Assembly (NCBI RefSeq): GCF_005116505.1
Contig: NZ_SWBR01000001.1
Span: 1,240,001 to 1,304,000, forward strand
Length of the DNA stretch: 64,000 nucleotides
Direction of reading: 5' to 3'
Source: Pedobacter polaris
GTDB taxonomy: Bacteria > Bacteroidota > Bacteroidia > Sphingobacteriales > Sphingobacteriaceae
Part shown: positions 57,657 to 64,000 of the stretch, one piece after another
Numbering within the stretch: position 1 is the first letter of the stretch
How the letters are laid out: each line of letters starts with the position of its first letter
Program-made: the position numbers and the translations under genes
The notes under the pieces: generated by a model
Told to the model about the DNA's origin: nothing
The model's database searches: none
What the model saw: the letters and a program-made list of their open reading frames with translations, nothing else

Positions 57657-57926
57657 CTAAACTTTTGCTTTCGATTCTGCCATTAGAATGAATCTAGTTA
57701 CATCATTTTTAGAAATTATTTTTTGAGCTTCTACACACCTACCCATATATTCTAGATCCAATCCATATATGTTTGCTATTTCTTGGAGTCGCTTCACATC
57801 AACAGTAATTTTATCTGTTTCCCACTTGCAATAAGTACTGCGCTCAACATTAAGTATGTCTGCAATTTTTTGCTGTGTAGCCCCTTTTAAAGAACGTAGC
57901 TCTTTAAGTATAAATCCAATTTTCAT
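57657..57926 (-). CDS. XRE-family transcriptional regulator
   Basis: An 89-residue protein. Residues 5-60 form a Cro/CI-type helix-turn-helix (IGFILKELRSLKGATQQKIADILNVERSTYCKWETDKITVDVKRL), with a short helical extension at the C-terminus. It is divergent from the C39/VKOR fusion gene over 190 nt that contain operator-like repeats, making it the most likely local regulator of the peptide-export cluster. No ligand or sensor domain is present, so it may respond to an interacting protein or peptide. Confidence 0.9.
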   Translation of the reverse strand: MKIGFILKELRSLKGATQQKIADILNVERSTYCKWETDKITVDVKRLQEIANIYGLDLEYMGRCVEAQKIISKNDVTRFILMAESKAKV

Positions 57927-57992
57927 AAGTAGCGTAATTTTTAATTCGGGAGATTAATGCAAATTACAAATAAAAATATTTCATTTCCAACA

Positions 57993-58041
57993 TGTGATTA
58001 TAAATCACAAAATGTGAAAACAAATCACAAAAAAAATCACA
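57993..58041. promoter_or_regulatory. Two tandem TGTGA-N7-TCACA sites plus a half-site
   Basis: Site 1 is TGTGATTATAAATCACA (57993-58009), with perfect 7-nt arms. Site 2 is TGTGAAAACAAATCACA (58013-58029), centre to centre 20 bp. A further TCACA is at 58037-58041. Between them and the +strand gene lies a -7-like TAGGTTTA (58051-58058); on the other side a -7-like element for the XRE gene is at 57967-57974. The sites would overlap both -33 regions, fitting control by the neighbouring regulator. Confidence 0.55.
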
Positions 58042-58116
58042 CAAACATTTTAGGTTTATAAATGATGGTTTAGGATAATTTCTGCCATAAAAATTAACGT
58101 CGAAAAATATAATTAT

Positions 58117-59709
58117 ATGCTTAATCTTTTTAAAGCAAGGCAAAGTAACGCTGTTGCAATCGTACAACTATTATTAAAAGCCCTAAATATTAAAGTTAGT
58201 GATAGCACAATTAAAAACGCATTAGAAGATCATCCAGATTATCCGAGTTTGTTATCCATTAGTGATTGTTTAACAGAATGGTATGTTGCAAATGATGCTT
58301 ATCAAATTGACAAAGAAGATTATGACCCTTCTGATTTACAATTCCCCTTTATTGCTCATTTAAAAACAAATGGTGGTAATTATATATTAATAACTGCAAT
58401 CAAAGACCATCAAATTACCTATAGTAATGAAAAAGGAAAAAATGCTTTAATATCTGAAAACGATTTCTTAAAGGAGTGGTCTGGGGTAGCTTTACATGCT
58501 ACCAAAACTGATAAAAGTGGTGAAATCGGATATAATAACAATTACATTAAAGATATTTTTAGTAGGTTAAAATTACCTCTTTTAATCACCACCATTATTT
58601 TGGGGATATTATTAGCAATTGATTACCAAACAATCAATCCCAATTATGGGGTCTTATTATTTATAAAATTAACTGGGGTATTAACCAGTGTTCTTTTACT
58701 AATGCACAGCATTAATGCAAACAATCCATTAATACAAAACTTATGCAGTATGGGTAACAAAAATAACTGTAATGCTATTTTGAAATCAGAAGCTGCCAAG
58801 GTAACATCATGGTTAAGCTGGAGTGAGGTAGGTTATTTTTATTTTGTAGGCAGCTCTATATGTCTATTATTCTTACCTCTTTCTATATCAATTTTAGCAT
58901 GGCTAAATGTATTCGCTCTACCTTATACCATCTATTCTCTAAGTTACCAATACAGACATAAAAATTGGTGTGTATTGTGTTGCGCTGTTCAAGCAATTTT
59001 ATTGGGGGAATTTATACTCAATATTTTGTCAGATAACATTTTAAATTTTGAAATTTCAACTTATATTAAGATCATACCTTCTATTCTATTAGCATTCACA
59101 ATACCCATCTTAACTTGGGCAGTTATAAAACCTATGCTTTTAAAATCAGCACTAAGCAAACCTTTAAAACAACAACTTAAAAAGTTTAAGTACAATAGTG
59201 ATTTATTTAAACAAGTACTACAAAACCAAGCTAAATACAGTATTTCTAATGATTTGATGCCCATTACCTTAGGCAATCCTAATGCCGAGACGACCATCAC
59301 TATGGTCAGCAATCCATTTTGTGGTCCCTGTGCCAAGGCTCATCAAGTTCTTGATGGATGGCTAAGTTACAGGGATGATATTCAAGTAAAAATCATTTTT
59401 AGTACTGCAGACCACGATAACGATGAAAAAACAAAGGTTGCCAGACATATCAGTGCTTTAGGTCAGTTAAATGATGTGAAATTAGTAGAACAAGCACTTA
59501 ACGATTGGTATAATCAAAGCACTAAAAAATATGAAAATTGGGCACAGAAACATCCAATCAATTTTGATGGGGAATGGAATGAAGTAACAAAGAAACAAAA
59601 AGCTTGGTGTGATTTAACCGAAATCACTTTTACACCCACTATTTTGATAAATGGTTATAAACTTCCAGAACCTTATAGATTAGAAGACATTAAATATTTA
59701 TTAAATTAA
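58117..59709 (+). CDS. C39-like/VKOR/thioredoxin fusion protein
   Basis: A 530-residue membrane protein in three parts. Residues 1-140 resemble a C39 peptidase domain without the catalytic DCG motif; the expected His segment reads GGNYILI. Residues about 155-345 form a VKOR domain with five or so helices; loop Cys210 and Cys218 (LCSMGNKNNC) and the quinone-reducing CxxC Cys285-Cys288 (CVLC) are present. Residues about 375-530 form a thioredoxin-like domain with CGPC-type FCGPC, Cys402 and Cys405. It should form disulfides and pass electrons to quinone at the membrane. It lies upstream of the C39 exporter gene. Confidence 0.87.
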   Translation: MLNLFKARQSNAVAIVQLLLKALNIKVSDSTIKNALEDHPDYPSLLSISDCLTEWYVANDAYQIDKEDYDPSDLQFPFIAHLKTNGGNYILITAIKDHQITYSNEKGKNALISENDFLKEWSGVALHATKTDKSGEIGYNNNYIKDIFSRLKLPLLITTIILGILLAIDYQTINPNYGVLLFIKLTGVLTSVLLLMHSINANNPLIQNLCSMGNKNNCNAILKSEAAKVTSWLSWSEVGYFYFVGSSICLLFLPLSISILAWLNVFALPYTIYSLSYQYRHKNWCVLCCAVQAILLGEFILNILSDNILNFEISTYIKIIPSILLAFTIPILTWAVIKPMLLKSALSKPLKQQLKKFKYNSDLFKQVLQNQAKYSISNDLMPITLGNPNAETTITMVSNPFCGPCAKAHQVLDGWLSYRDDIQVKIIFSTADHDNDEKTKVARHISALGQLNDVKLVEQALNDWYNQSTKKYENWAQKHPINFDGEWNEVTKKQKAWCDLTEITFTPTILINGYKLPEPYRLEDIKYLLN

Positions 59710-59719
59710 TAGTAAAATC

Positions 59720-59731
59720 TTTTGTACAAAA
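59720..59731. promoter_or_regulatory. 12-bp perfect palindrome TTTTGTACAAAA
   Basis: A perfect palindrome in the gap after the fusion gene, 8 nt before a possible 23-aa reading frame. It also contains a TTTG that could act as -33. Its role is unknown; a regulator site is possible. Confidence 0.3.
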
Positions 59732-59738
59732 AGGCAGC

Positions 59739-59810
59739 ATGATTTGGAATGAAACTACCCCAACAGCTAGTATCGACGTACATCGCTACTGCTTAAGTAA
59801 ACCTGCGTGA
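59739..59810 (+). CDS. Possible 23-aa peptide ORF in the exporter gap
   Basis: ATG at 59739, TGA at 59810; product MIWNETTPTASIDVHRYCLS plus KPA. There is no signal or double-glycine leader and no clear promoter. It may be a leader peptide, a non-coding coincidence, or a remnant. The remaining gap to 59938 shows no other candidate gene. Confidence 0.15.
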   Translation: MIWNETTPTASIDVHRYCLSKPA

Positions 59811-59938
59811 AGGATTACTAAAACTTAAACATTCAAATTATGAACAGCTCTTAATACAAGAATAAAATACTGTATTTTACAGTCAAAATAGCCATTTAAA
59901 AATTGCTCTAATAATTTAGCTTAATGAGCTAAAACATA

Positions 59939-62155
59939 ATGACATACAAATTTTTTATAATACCTTTGAAAAAAAACTTCCCCTTTTACAAGCAACCAGA
60001 CCAAATGGACTGTGGGCCAACCTGTCTTCGCATGGTTGCCAAACATTATGGCAAAAACTTTAGTATACAACAGTTAAGGGAAATCTCGGGAATTAACAGA
60101 GAAGGGGTTTCACTTTTGGGCATTAGCGAGGCTGCAGAAAAAATTGGATTTAGAACTACAGGTAGTAGACTAAGTCTTGCTCAAGTAAATGAAATTGAAT
60201 TACCTAGCATTTTACATTGGGATCAAAACCATTTTGTAGTCTTATACAAAATAAAGAATGGGATTTACCATGTTGCAGATCCAGCGAAGGGCTTAATCAA
60301 GTATAAAACGGAAGAATTTGTCACGCACTGGTTAAGCACATACAATAATAGCCATAGACAAGGCATTGCCTTGGTATTATCTCCTACTCCTGAATTATAT
60401 ATACAAGAGGGGGATAAAACAGAAGGCATTAATTTTGCTTATTTACTACGCTATCTTTATCGTTATAAACAATTGGTATCACAGTTATTTGTCGGATTAG
60501 GCGTAGGCAGCTTATTACAATTAATTGTTCCTTTCCTTACACAATCAATTGTAGATATAGGTATTAATACCAGAAATCTTAATTTCATCTATATCATCCT
60601 GATTGCACAGACGATGTTGTTTGTAGGCAGAATGAGTGTAGAGTTTATCCGTTCATGGATTTTGTTACATATCAGTACAAGGATTAACATTTCAATCCTT
60701 ACTGATTTTTTGATCAAGTTGATGAAATTGCCCATGAGCTTTTTCGATGCAAAGATGACAGGGGATATCATGCAAAGGATGAACGATCAAAAACGGATTG
60801 AGAGCTTCTTGACCGGTAGCACACTGAACATCATTTTTTCCATGTTTAATCTAATTATCTTTACAGGTGTATTAGCTTATTACAACATCAATATTTTTTT
60901 TATCTTTTTGCTGAGTAGCGTAATTTATTCCCTATGGGTAATTGCATTCTTAAAAAAGAGACGCGATCTGGATTTTAAGCGTTTCGATATTTCCTCCAAA
61001 AACCAAAGTAGCATTGTACAACTGATTGGTGGTATGCAGGAGATCAAACTTAATAATTGCGAGCAACAAAAACGTTGGGAATGGGAAAGATTACAGGCAG
61101 GGCTTTTTAAATACAGTATAAAGAGTTTATCACTAGGGCAAATTCAACAGGCTGGTACTTTTTTTATTAATGAGGGCAAGAATATTATCATTACCTTTTT
61201 AGTAGCCAAATCTGTTATAGATGGGCAATTAACCCTTGGCGGTATGATGGCCATACAATATATTGTAGGTCAGGTTAACAGTCCAATTGAACAGTTATTA
61301 GGCTTTATTCAACAGCTTCAGGATGCAAAGATCAGCTTGGAGAGGTTAAATGAAATACATCAAATGGATGATGAGGAACCAGTAGACAAAACTTTTTTAA
61401 AGGAGTTGCCCACCAATAAGAGCATTAGCATTCATAACCTAAGTTTTACCTACCCAGGGGCAGGCAACGAACCTGTTTTAAGAGGCATTAACTTAGATAT
61501 TCCCGAAGGGAAAACCACTGCCATTGTGGGTATGAGTGGTAGTGGCAAGACTACCATTCTAAAGCTATTGTTGCGCTTTTATAACCCGCAAAAGGGCGAA
61601 TTAAAAGTAGGTGCCACACATTTAGATCAAATTGGTTACCGTTATTGGCGAGGCAAATGCGGCACTGTAATGCAAGATGGTTTTATCTTTTCTGATACCA
61701 TTGCTAAAAACATTGCGGTGGTTGACGAATATCCAGATATAGAAAAATTGAGACATGCGGTTAAAATGGCTAACATTGATGATTTAATTGATGGGTTACC
61801 ACTCGGATTAAATACCAAAATTGGAGCAGAAGGAAACGGAATTAGCCAAGGACAAAAACAAAGGATTTTAATTGCTAGGGCTGTCTACAAAAATCCGGAG
61901 TACATCTTTTTTGATGAGGCCACTAACTCGCTTGATGCCAACAATGAAAGTATTATTATGCAAAACCTAGAAAAATTCTTTAGGGGTAAAACTGTCGTAG
62001 TAGTTGCTCATAGGCTGAGTACAGTGAGAAATGCTGATAATATTGTAGTGTTAGATAAAGGGGTAATCATAGAACAAGGCACCCATACTCAACTTACACA
62101 CAATAAGGGAGAATATTATCAGCTGGTAAAAAACCAGTTAGAATTGGGCGAATAA
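59939..62155 (+). CDS. Peptidase C39-containing ABC exporter (PCAT)
   Basis: A 738-residue transporter that cuts a double-glycine leader and exports the peptide. The N-terminal C39 protease has Gln19, Cys25 (QPDQMDCGPTC), His98 (WDQNHFVVLYKI) and Asp114 (VADPAKG), a complete catalytic set. It is followed by a six-helix membrane domain (about 165-440) and an ABC ATPase with Walker A GMSGSGKT (531-538), an ISQGQKQR signature and Walker B YIFFDEATN. Its likely substrate is the 68-aa peptide downstream, and its adaptor the HlyD protein further on. Confidence 0.95.
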   Translation: MTYKFFIIPLKKNFPFYKQPDQMDCGPTCLRMVAKHYGKNFSIQQLREISGINREGVSLLGISEAAEKIGFRTTGSRLSLAQVNEIELPSILHWDQNHFVVLYKIKNGIYHVADPAKGLIKYKTEEFVTHWLSTYNNSHRQGIALVLSPTPELYIQEGDKTEGINFAYLLRYLYRYKQLVSQLFVGLGVGSLLQLIVPFLTQSIVDIGINTRNLNFIYIILIAQTMLFVGRMSVEFIRSWILLHISTRINISILTDFLIKLMKLPMSFFDAKMTGDIMQRMNDQKRIESFLTGSTLNIIFSMFNLIIFTGVLAYYNINIFFIFLLSSVIYSLWVIAFLKKRRDLDFKRFDISSKNQSSIVQLIGGMQEIKLNNCEQQKRWEWERLQAGLFKYSIKSLSLGQIQQAGTFFINEGKNIIITFLVAKSVIDGQLTLGGMMAIQYIVGQVNSPIEQLLGFIQQLQDAKISLERLNEIHQMDDEEPVDKTFLKELPTNKSISIHNLSFTYPGAGNEPVLRGINLDIPEGKTTAIVGMSGSGKTTILKLLLRFYNPQKGELKVGATHLDQIGYRYWRGKCGTVMQDGFIFSDTIAKNIAVVDEYPDIEKLRHAVKMANIDDLIDGLPLGLNTKIGAEGNGISQGQKQRILIARAVYKNPEYIFFDEATNSLDANNESIIMQNLEKFFRGKTVVVVAHRLSTVRNADNIVVLDKGVIIEQGTHTQLTHNKGEYYQLVKNQLELGE

Positions 62156-62224
62156 ATAAAATTAAAAACAATAAATTGAATGTTAACCTAAATTAAAAAA
62201 TCGCAAATATAAAATTTTAAAACA

Positions 62225-62278
62225 GTTCAGCCACCCAAGGGGGTAGCTGAACTAGGTAAAACCTACAAGCCCGTAGGT
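62225..62278 (+). other. Tandem hairpins in the leader of the precursor-peptide gene
   Basis: Hairpin 1: GTTCAGC (62225-62231) with GCTGAAC (62246-62252), plus inner ACCC/GGGT (one mismatch), 28 nt in all. Hairpin 2: ACCTAC (62261-62266) with GTAGGT (62273-62278). An alternative pairing, TAGGT (62253-62257) with ACCTA (62261-62265), excludes hairpin 2. No T-run follows, so it is not a plain terminator. The GC content stands out from the AT-rich surroundings. Confidence 0.5.
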
Positions 62279-62365
62279 ATGCTCACCAAAGTGGCAAACA
62301 GAAATTAATCAATTGCAAAACTAACTTTTTTAACTGTTTTTGAATGTAAAAAACAGTAATTACAA

Positions 62366-62572
62366 ATGAATAAACATAATATTTTAAGTAAAAATGAAAT
62401 GAAAAATGTATTTGGTGGTGGTTGTCCAGCATGGTATCAATCTCAATGCTTGCAACAAGCAGCTAGTGAACCATCATCTGGTGATCCGATAGAAGATGAT
62501 ATCATATTTAATTTGATATTAGAAACCTGTTTGCGAGAGTGGGATTCTAATCCTGATAATAACCCCTCATAA
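62366..62572 (+). CDS. Double-glycine leader precursor peptide, cysteine-containing
   Basis: A 68-residue peptide. Leader MNKHNILSKNEMKNVFGG fits LSxxEMxxVxGG, the consensus cut by C39 proteases after Gly18. The 50-residue core has Cys20, Cys28 and Cys55, two Trp (23 and 59), and is strongly acidic (nine Asp/Glu, one Arg, no Lys). No maturation enzyme for lanthionine or radical-SAM chemistry is adjacent; the VKOR/thioredoxin fusion could form a disulfide. The ATG at 62366 leaves exactly the leader expected. It may be a bacteriocin-like or signalling peptide. Confidence 0.8.
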   Translation: MNKHNILSKNEMKNVFGGGCPAWYQSQCLQQAASEPSSGDPIEDDIIFNLILETCLREWDSNPDNNPS

Positions 62573-62633
62573 TTAAAATGACAGATCAGTTTTTTCAATT
62601 GGTCTGTCTTAATTCCTTACAAAAGAATATTTT

Positions 62634-63248
62634 ATGAAATTAAAAATTGTAATAACCATTATCTTTTATCTTGTTTTGAGTTTCACAAATTCCTTTGCCC
62701 AGTCTAATCTTTCAAAGATTAGCGGATCTTTAGAAACCTCTCCCTATTCATATGCATATTTGTTCTTGAGCGAAAGGAACTTAACTATTAAAAAGCCTAT
62801 TATTAATGGAAAGTTCAATTTTCTAGTAAATAAAGAGAAAGAATTCGAAATGGCCATTCTTTATTTCGGGCTAGATTCTAATAGAACTTATTCAGATATA
62901 GTAGAGAATCGAAATAAAGGAATATTTGAATCGAAAATAATTGCTTTGGATGATTCAATATCGATTTATGTAAAGGATAATGTGAAAGATTCTCAAGTTT
63001 TGGGTGGAATTCATACCAAAGCACTATATGCAATGGATGATGCCACTAAAACAGGGAATTATAAAAATTTCTTCGAAGAATATAGTAAATCACCTTTAGC
63101 ATTAATGTTATTAAGTGTAATTATTAGAGTAGATAAAAGAACTTATAGAAGTTCTGTTGATTATAAGAAAATTTATAACAACTTACCTATAAACCTTCAG
63201 AATTCAAAAAAAGGGCAAGAAGTAAAGGCCTTAATAGAGAAAAATTAG
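62634..63248 (+). CDS. Secreted DUF4369-like protein without thioredoxin domain
   Basis: A 204-residue protein with a signal peptide (to about residue 22, TNSFAQ). The body matches the DUF4369-like N-terminal part of Bacteroidota TlpA-type thiol-disulfide proteins: a beta-sandwich (ISGSLETSPYSYAYLFL), then a helical region ending SPLALMLLSVIIRVDK and NSKKGQEVKALIEKN. Relatives usually go on to a thioredoxin domain with CxxC; here a stop falls exactly at that junction. It may hold or chaperone the exported peptide; this is inferred from location between the precursor and the HlyD gene. Confidence 0.72.
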   Translation: MKLKIVITIIFYLVLSFTNSFAQSNLSKISGSLETSPYSYAYLFLSERNLTIKKPIINGKFNFLVNKEKEFEMAILYFGLDSNRTYSDIVENRNKGIFESKIIALDDSISIYVKDNVKDSQVLGGIHTKALYAMDDATKTGNYKNFFEEYSKSPLALMLLSVIIRVDKRTYRSSVDYKKIYNNLPINLQNSKKGQEVKALIEKN

Positions 63249-63275
63249 AGCTTATATCAAACAAAATAATTAATT

Positions 63276-64000
63276 ATGCCAATAGAACAACAAGTAGATT
63301 ATCAAAACAGTGAAGAGGTTCAAGAGATCATTACAGCAGTTCCTTCTTGGATACTAAGAAGAGGTATTACCTTGATTTTTTTGGTTTTGGTTTTGATAAT
63401 TTTACTTTCGGCTTTTATTAGGTATCCAGATGTGGTTAAAACCTCATTAAAAGTAAACTCTCTTAATTCGCCAAAACCTGTTATAGCGCACCAACAAGGT
63501 AAATTAGTTAAAATTCTTATAAAAGAAAACCAAATTGTTGCCGAAAAACAACCTTTGGCATTTATAGAAAGTACAGCTAGTCATATAGATGTAATCAAGT
63601 TCGCAAATAACCTCAAATTACTTCAACAAAAGTTAAATACTACACAAGTAAGTAGTTCTGATTTTGAAACAACAGGATTAAATTTAGGTGAACTACAGAG
63701 CAGTTATCAAAATTTTTATCAAGAATATTTGGCTTTTATAAATACTCAAAAAGGAGGGTTTTACCTTGCACAGCGTAACTATTTAGAGAAGGACTTGACT
63801 GAGATTAAGAAACTACAAAATCAGATTAACACACAAAAAAAGATACAGGAAAAAGAATATGCAAATGCTGAGGAAGAATTTCAAGCTTATCTAAAGTTAA
63901 AAAGTAAAAATGTAATTTCAAACAGCGAATTCAAACAGCAAGAAAATAAGTATTTGGCAAGCAAATATCCATTGCAACAATCAGCTACGGCATTGCTTAA
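63276..64000 (+). CDS. HlyD-family membrane-fusion protein (C-terminus beyond window)
   Basis: The ATG at 63276 opens a frame that continues to the right edge (about 241 residues visible). A short cytoplasmic N-terminus precedes a membrane helix (about 28-50, GITLIFLVLVLIILLSAFI), then a lipoyl-like half (VIAHQQGKLVKILIKENQIV) and a coiled-coil hairpin, the standard HlyD layout. It should link the C39 ABC exporter to an outer-membrane channel. It starts 27 nt after the DUF4369-like gene, so it is probably in the same operon. Confidence 0.9.
   Translation, partial: MPIEQQVDYQNSEEVQEIITAVPSWILRRGITLIFLVLVLIILLSAFIRYPDVVKTSLKVNSLNSPKPVIAHQQGKLVKILIKENQIVAEKQPLAFIESTASHIDVIKFANNLKLLQQKLNTTQVSSSDFETTGLNLGELQSSYQNFYQEYLAFINTQKGGFYLAQRNYLEKDLTEIKKLQNQINTQKKIQEKEYANAEEEFQAYLKLKSKNVISNSEFKQQENKYLASKYPLQQSATALL

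Follow-up and report, generated by a model that had tools for sequence, protein, structure and literature searches.

We analyzed a 64,000-nucleotide window from Pedobacter polaris (contig NZ_SWBR01000001.1; C1:1240001-1304000 of a 4.57-Mb genome), the right-hand end of which carries a candidate system for the oxidation and export of a double-glycine (GG) peptide. Five genes follow one another on the plus strand. The first encodes a 530-residue fusion of a C39-like, a vitamin K epoxide reductase (VKOR), and a thioredoxin domain (window positions 58117 to 59709; PF03412, PF07884, and PF13462, all above cut-off). It is followed by a 738-residue C39-peptidase ATP-binding cassette (ABC) exporter with intact peptidase residues (59939 to 62155; PF03412, PF00664, and PF00005), a 68-residue precursor recognized by its leader motif (62366 to 62572), a gene for a 204-residue protein with an apparent signal peptide (62634 to 63248), and a HlyD-type adaptor of 429 residues (TIGR01843; E 1e-10 for the part inside the window), which starts at 63276 and ends beyond the edge, at window position 64565. 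The original prediction, a peptide-export system with its own oxidizing fusion protein, was right that the fusion, exporter, precursor, and adaptor are real and collinear and that the system runs past the window edge. It had also placed a regulator in the series. The helix-turn-helix gene in question (57657 to 57926; PF01381), a possible regulator of the locus, lies on the minus strand, and is therefore divergent from the operon rather than collinear with it.

No lanthionine, radical S-adenosylmethionine, or other modifying enzyme was found in the operon with Pfam and NCBIfam, and none was seen by eye rightward as far as L003:20000, where convergent housekeeping genes follow HlyD; this is the outcome that the original prediction had expected of a rightward extension. 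A lanthipeptide reading was dropped because no such enzyme was seen and the leader models match only below threshold. Specifically, several precursors of the family weakly match the NCBIfam models NF047798 (leader) and NF047792 (CCPGW putative bacteriocins), under their curated cut-offs, and these models describe the peptide only.

The fusion is annotated in RefSeq as a “vitamin K epoxide reductase family protein.” It had been described as a two-part VKOR-thioredoxin protein, and both of these parts stand, but an N-terminal C39-like domain was overlooked (PF03412, E 3.5e-13). Pfam matches Peptidase_C39 at residues 10 to 132, VKOR at 180 to 302 (32 bits against a cut-off of 27.5), and Thioredoxin_4 at 382 to 529, all exceeding their cut-offs, and domain databases presumably list this triple architecture. 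In an AlphaFold2 model (mean predicted local distance difference test score [pLDDT] 83.4; predicted template modeling score 0.63), residues 6 to 134 (58132 to 58518) adopt the fold of the C39 domains of PCAT1 and LahT (structural Z scores of 16.1 to 16.7), including the leader complex 6mpz (Z 16.1). An additional transmembrane helix, helix A, spans residues 139 to 167 (58531 to 58617) and precedes the VKOR core at residues 171 to 313 (58627 to 59055), which aligns with the human and Synechococcus VKOR structures (Z 13.2 to 13.3; Synechococcus 4nv5, Z 13.2) from residue 171 to 174 onward only. The C-terminal thioredoxin/DsbA-like domain (residues 369 to 530; 59221 to 59706), with a CGPC motif encoded at 59320 to 59331, matches ScsC and DsbA (Z up to 17.3) and also the isomerases DsbC and DsbG. 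The fold, the loop cysteine pair, and the CxxC motif that mark the VKOR family are all present, as are the four redox cysteines known from Synechococcus VKOR, a protein in which the core is likewise joined to a thioredoxin-fold domain. All six redox cysteines of the fusion (Cys 210, 218, 285, 288, 402, and 405) are conserved in 122 of 122 aligned rows, a count that includes L200, which lies on the same contig as L081.

The N-terminal domain is related to the C39 domains of the exporters (hhalign probability 95%, E 2.9e-8) and to that of PCAT1. Nevertheless, the position of the peptidase cysteine is occupied by Asn in 86 of 122 rows and by Cys in 1, the position of the peptidase histidine holds His in only 4, and the aspartate is kept in 55. 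In the exporters, Cys25, His98, and Asp114 are invariant across 12 aligned sequences, and the ABC transporter domains are present. Because the peptidase cysteine and histidine have been lost, the domain is C39-like rather than a peptidase, and it probably binds leaders. In fold, sequence, and loss of peptidase residues it resembles the C39 and C39-like domains of PCAT exporters and HlyB; here, however, it is attached to a redox enzyme and not to an ABC transporter. The functional comparison draws on what is known of the HlyB C39-like domain.

If the fusion oxidizes the peptides encoded beside it, their cores would be expected to hold even numbers of cysteines, and this is the pattern that we observed in 177 of 186 cores, which supports the original proposal that disulfide formation is the maturation step. 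In the first set of loci, selected for the presence of the fusion without regard to the peptide, 100 of 104 cores are even, mostly with six cysteines (2 of 106 open reading frames [ORFs] were dropped: a false match in L039 with no cysteine and one in L081 ending in GA with two). The four odd cores are the window's own, with three cysteines, a truncated one with a single cysteine, and cores with five and nine. Single-linkage clustering at 40% identity gave 19 clusters that are all even, 2 that are odd, and 1 that is mixed, with even representatives in 20 of 22 (p 1.2e-4). A second set of 40 loci, mostly from other families and classes, returned 77 even cores of 82 (p 1.2e-17), after nine of its 92 ORFs that end in GS or GA (all even) and the one from L200 had been dropped. 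Across the family, cores have mostly 6 cysteines and also 4, 8, or 10.

As controls, we fetched 60 of 88 fusion-less exporters, most similar first and some of them near contig ends, where fusion-less means that no listed fusion match lies within 15 kb. Their loci hold 13 same-strand GG-like ORFs, with no cysteine in five, five cysteines in four, and 2, 4, 6, and 8 in one each. Counting both strands, and with some regular-expression false positives included, 10 of 19 cysteine-containing control ORFs are even and 9 odd, whereas 9 of the 186 cores encoded near fusions are odd (Fisher p 2e-6). Eleven fusion-less exporters (L115 to L124 and L127) share at least 60% identity with that of the window, and three of these loci have same-strand GG ORFs: those of L117 and L119 are cysteine-free, and those of L123 have 6 and 8 cysteines. 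L123 was rejected as a clean fusion-less counter-example. A 112-residue frame matching the fusion N terminus stands at its head; apart from C39-type proteins, no other fragment of this kind turned up among the 60 controls. L123 is thus probably a decayed fusion locus. Evenness across such diverse cores is the main support for disulfides, and these counts are strong evidence, at the level of sequence, that the core cysteines beside fusions pair.

Some cores may be knottin-like, although this is no more than a lead. The spacing C-x5-7-C-x4-7-CC-x3-5-C-x4-13-C occurs in 11 of 104 cores (in L078, L101, L103, L109, and L113), from which the window core is absent, and a looser pattern in 3 of the 82 further cores. 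Pfam cystine-knot families match the knottin-like cores only below threshold, and an AlphaFold2 model of one of them (pLDDT 81) gave Foldseek matches that are mostly cystine-knot peptides, with a best E of 0.14 (all above 0.1).

Relatives of the fusion are widespread, occurring in 56 of 201 genomes of a family sample (E <= 1e-10), and in 41 of 395 genomes and 12 of 170 genera of a phylum sample (E <= 1e-30). Among 72,556 plasmid records, 8 have a relative, including records from Emticicia, Spirosoma, Hymenobacter, and Parabacteroides distasonis. The named sequences that best match the window fusion come from Pedobacter. The earlier suggestion that the fusion is special to the window locus is therefore not supported, and the term “undescribed” fits the architecture and the mechanism rather than this locus alone. 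Co-occurrence in relatives, a check that the original prediction had put forward, proved strong. Among 82 fusion loci surveyed (80 named and two from P. polaris itself), an exporter is found in 63 and both exporter and HlyD in 59, a regular expression identifies a GG precursor in 70, and 67 have one with an even count of at least 4 cysteines; where flanks are ample, the exporter is present in 53 of 64. Conversely, when the 141 complete exporters listed for the family sample are ranked by identity to that of the window, a fusion lies within 15 kb of 16 of 16 at identities of at least 75%, 29 of 40 at 60 to 75%, 7 of 42 at 50 to 60%, and 1 of 43 below 50%. The association is not due to chance, since all 16 of the closest exporters have a fusion nearby, and its grading by identity indicates that the fusion and one exporter clade travel together.

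A TlpA-like protein is a further recurrent member. A family defined with phmmer (51 ORFs) is present in 38 of 49 loci with an ORF of at least 150 residues between fusion and exporter, a count that takes in the 204-residue protein of the window, though this is sited behind the exporter. Among 25 sampled members, 18 match thioredoxin families and 4 match DUF4369.

The membrane orientation of the fusion, no part of the original prediction, appears to be inverted. Averaged hydropathy of 84 fusions and the AlphaFold2 model both give six membrane helices, that is, those of VKOR, the thioredoxin anchor, and one more, the additional helix before the VKOR core. With this helix in place, the C39-like domain, the VKOR cysteines, and the thioredoxin domain share one side of the membrane. 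That side carries on average 14.35 lysines plus arginines (K+R) per sequence against 0.86 on the other (84 of 84 rows), or 0.155 against 0.028 per residue, and 37 further rows gave 15.22 against 0.59 (37 of 37). Overall, the redox side is richer in 121 of 121 sequences, per residue as well, so that the pattern of canonical periplasmic VKOR-DsbA proteins, with positive loops away from the redox cysteines, is reversed in every case. According to the positive-inside rule, positively charged loops mark the cytoplasmic side; given this rule and the charge bias, the redox sites are predicted to be cytoplasmic. Such an orientation would suit the encounter of the C39-like domain with leaders in the cytoplasm and would agree with export through ABC and HlyD, which offers no periplasmic stop. 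In five ordinary Bacteroidota VKOR-type proteins, the bias runs the other way: on the aligned loops, the redox side has 1, 1, 2, 2, and 3 K+R and the opposite side 8, 13, 3, 11, and 12, and the 3-4 loop preceding CxxC has none. A plasmid search with VKOR-DsbA for a larger topology control returned DsbA parts only, and a search of the Protein Data Bank few VKOR rows. Relative to known VKOR-DsbA fusions, then, the protein differs in its N-terminal C39-like domain and extra helix, its reversed loop charges, and its predicted inversion.

We lean modestly toward a dedicated disulfide pathway for exported GG peptides, in which leader-docked, quinone-coupled oxidation would take place at the cytoplasmic face before export. 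The fusion would first receive the precursor, whose leader would dock on its degenerate C39-like domain. The thioredoxin domain would then oxidize the core cysteines, with electrons passing through the VKOR cysteine pairs to the membrane quinone. Both docking and oxidation would occur on the cytoplasmic face, the fusion being inverted relative to ordinary VKOR. The folded precursor would be handed to the C39-ABC exporter and cut after GG, and the core would leave by way of HlyD and a TolC-type channel without passing through the periplasm; ABC and HlyD genes are present at the window locus, and a TolC gene adjoins such a pair in Emticicia (L182). The TlpA-like protein, in the window its short form, may be a cognate partner, perhaps one for immunity, and the exported peptide is most likely bacteriocin-like. 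More broadly, and with confidence a little short of even, we propose that Bacteroidota have evolved a natural cytoplasm-facing, leader-docked VKOR-thioredoxin that ties disulfide-rich peptides, knottin-like ones included, before export, and that the peptides it serves, all with paired cysteines, form a large family that has mostly escaped notice.

Several observations weigh against this pathway. The core of the window's own precursor (leader of 18 residues, 62366 to 62419; core, GCPAW...C...C, 62420 to 62569) has three cysteines, which therefore cannot all pair within one molecule, a difficulty that the original prediction shares. Homologues with the same three cysteines occur in 2 of 144 other genomes of the genus (E < 1e-8; a third match has an E of 0.09), and the third cysteine may be free or may link two molecules. 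Nine of the 186 cores are odd, the fetched DNA showed no exporter at 19 of the 82 fusion loci, although flanks were ample at 11 of these, and the regular expression gave no precursor at 12 of 82. A DSBA-family protein is encoded elsewhere in the P. polaris genome. The orientation is deduced from the positive-inside rule, a model, and homology; lysines and arginines close to CxxC could serve catalysis instead of marking topology, and the cytoplasm is reducing. The control with ordinary VKORs is thin, since four of the five proteins lack the loop cysteine pair; the exception, a complete VKOR-DsbA (L186), gives 2 against 3 on aligned loops, with a larger difference by hydropathy.

The same genes could instead work with the VKOR in its usual orientation, the C39-like and thioredoxin domains lying in the periplasm and oxidation occurring during or after export. 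VKOR/DsbA-type enzymes of known topology do act outside the cytoplasm or in the lumen, and the fold matches of the fusion are ScsC, DsbA, and VKOR. Yet this arrangement would require a folded N-terminal domain of about 130 residues to be translocated without a visible signal peptide, would violate the positive-inside rule in 121 of 121 sequences, and would place oxidation on an ABC-HlyD route, with both genes in 59 of 82 loci, that has no obvious periplasmic stop; we regard it as rather unlikely. The fusion could also work as a reductase, maintaining precursors in a reduced, export-competent state, or as an isomerase that rearranges incorrect disulfides. Its CGPC motif is like that of reducing thioredoxins, its thioredoxin domain matches DsbC and DsbG too, and TlpA-like partners are usually reductases. 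On the other hand, quinone-linked bacterial VKOR normally runs toward oxidation, and even cysteine numbers are what an oxidized product is expected to show, which makes such a role very unlikely. That the peptides bind metal or act as signals, rather than as bacteriocins, seems quite unlikely. Cysteine-rich peptides can bind metal, and LytTR-type regulators lie upstream of the fusion at other loci; still, thiolate metal ligands would be poorly served by a quinone-linked oxidase, and the great diversity of the cores and their arrangement in tandem (L225 has 14 precursors) recall conflict peptides.

A fourth possibility, somewhat unlikely in our judgment, is that the locus is a bacteroidetocin-type cluster of the ordinary kind in which a membrane protein and a thiol oxidoreductase, otherwise separate, have merely fused. 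The regions that encode bacteroidetocins combine a GG peptide and a C39-ABC exporter with a thiol oxidoreductase and a five-helix protein (PMC6671954). Bacteroidetocins A and B have four cysteines and were proposed as class IIf bacteriocins, one bacteroidetocin has an uneven cysteine number, and deletion of either the five-helix protein, of unknown function, or the thiol oxidoreductase attenuates toxin activity (PMC6671954). According to the same authors, Bacteroides has no general disulfide machinery (PMC6671954). The parallels with the present system are thus considerable: Bacteroidota hosts, a double-glycine leader, a C39-ABC exporter, core cysteines, and a dedicated thiol oxidoreductase with a multi-helix membrane protein, both needed for full activity (PMC6671954). 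The P. polaris genome, for its part, gave no match to DsbB, and its only two VKOR matches are both fusions. It is tempting to suppose that the five-helix protein is a VKOR. A dedicated oxidase for GG peptides is already known from bacteroidetocins (PMC6671954). However, bacteroidetocins as described have leaders of 15 to 16 residues and usually four cysteines, against 18 residues and three cysteines in the window, and family cores mostly have 6 cysteines, with 4, 8, and 10 also represented. Moreover, where bacteroidetocin regions have a separate five-helix protein and oxidoreductase, a single triple fusion, their putative counterpart, stands here, and the present system adds HlyD and TlpA-like genes.

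The dedicated, cytoplasm-facing pathway has an engineered parallel in CyDisCo, in which an inverted VKOR or DsbB is usable in the Escherichia coli cytoplasm; as described (PMC4727284), it too relies on a quinone-type oxidase facing the cytoplasm, but it is engineered, acts on general substrates, and has no leader docking. We found no account of the triple fusion, its predicted inverted orientation, or the even-cysteine rule in the openly licensed literature searched, and the terms “Bacteroid,” “C39,” and “fusion” do not occur in the available text of a VKOR phylogeny (PMC4555120). The surprising element, a prediction with strong comparative support, is a degenerate, putatively leader-binding domain joined to an apparently inverted VKOR-thioredoxin. 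Novelty had also been sought in the acidic core and the truncated partner of the window, a view that is not supported, as both belong to one small subfamily.

The 204-residue protein alone matches no Pfam or NCBIfam model, and its earlier description as “DUF4369-like” and truncated was fair in that phmmer places it in the TlpA-like family, as a form without the thioredoxin domain. Its relatives occur in 16 of 145 genomes of the genus, and in all three genomes having the three-cysteine precursor, one adjoins it; conservation of the three cysteines in these genomes led us to reject a broken precursor. More generally, a two- or three-cysteine GG precursor adjoins the 204-residue relative in 5 of 12 loci, that of the window included, and none was found in the other 7. 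No match to the fusion, exporter, or HlyD was found in the 17 kb fetched around the precursor of either relative, one of which is a 400-contig draft, and both genomes carry the fusion elsewhere. The precursor and the 204-residue gene thus make up a cassette, which may depend on functions supplied in trans. The short form precedes a full-length TlpA-like protein in five other fusion loci of alignment A3 and is solitary here and in several loci. A role in immunity would be a guess.

Elsewhere in the P. polaris genome, contig C9 carries another locus of this type, which has two 6-cysteine precursors. An orphan GG ORF with 4 cysteines lies at window positions 68881 to 69117 (L003:12881-13117), 4.3 kb past HlyD, and adjoins a helix-turn-helix gene. 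A strict DNA leader pattern finds five places in the whole genome: the window precursor, this downstream ORF, the two C9 precursors, and C1:337908. At 4 of 81 other loci (L037, L046, L051, and L052; E <= 1e-12), a relative of the helix-turn-helix gene of the window lies divergently, 0.1 to 0.2 kb upstream of the fusion, with two additional matches among the 81 that are weak or distant; it is plausible from this placement that the gene is a regulatory member of the system in a few relatives.

Other GG peptides and modifying genes occur at fusion loci. L225 and L196 hold 14 and 9 different GG precursors, respectively, each at a single locus and on the strand of the fusion. Eight Pedobacter-group loci (L056, L058, L060, L063, L065, L072, L087, and L104) have divergent single-cysteine GG-leader ORFs on the minus strand, about 0.5 to 0.7 kb upstream of the fusion, of the type P-x-C-V-E-[DN]-K in 5 of 8, which apparently belong to a separate peptide system. 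In L192, L213, L214, L215, and L217, several cysteine-free GG-leader peptides with Gly/Asn-rich ends lie in a row at 5.9 to 10.5 kb on the strand opposite the fusion. At L189 (3651 to 5605; the same place as L228), a divergent fusion stands directly behind two genes that, read by eye, look like graspetide-type ATP-grasp ligase genes; given these neighbors, the fusion may serve further peptide classes. In L180, the interval that separates the precursor from the exporter holds annotated LanC-family and glycosyltransferase-type genes, and similar-looking genes were seen by eye in L048, L080, and L123, hinting at extra modifications.

Among the plasmid records, the Emticicia plasmid pEMTOL01 (L182), typed as conjugative, carries the full cluster with TolC, next to a gene annotated kwaA. 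In a Parabacteroides distasonis record labeled as a plasmid (L181; NZ_OY725771.1), the fusion is split into two ORFs. The Parabacteroides “plasmids” were rejected as evidence of mobility, since L181 carries lysS, gmk, and other housekeeping genes and may be a chromosomal piece.

If the proposed pathway is correct, it would contradict the textbook view that bacteria form such bonds outside the cytoplasm, and it would couple leader recognition to disulfide formation. The fusion would then be a simple genomic flag for many disulfide-rich bacterial peptides and a natural module for their production in laboratory strains. A further question would become testable: how disulfide-bonded bacteriocins are built in a phylum regarded as lacking general disulfide machinery.

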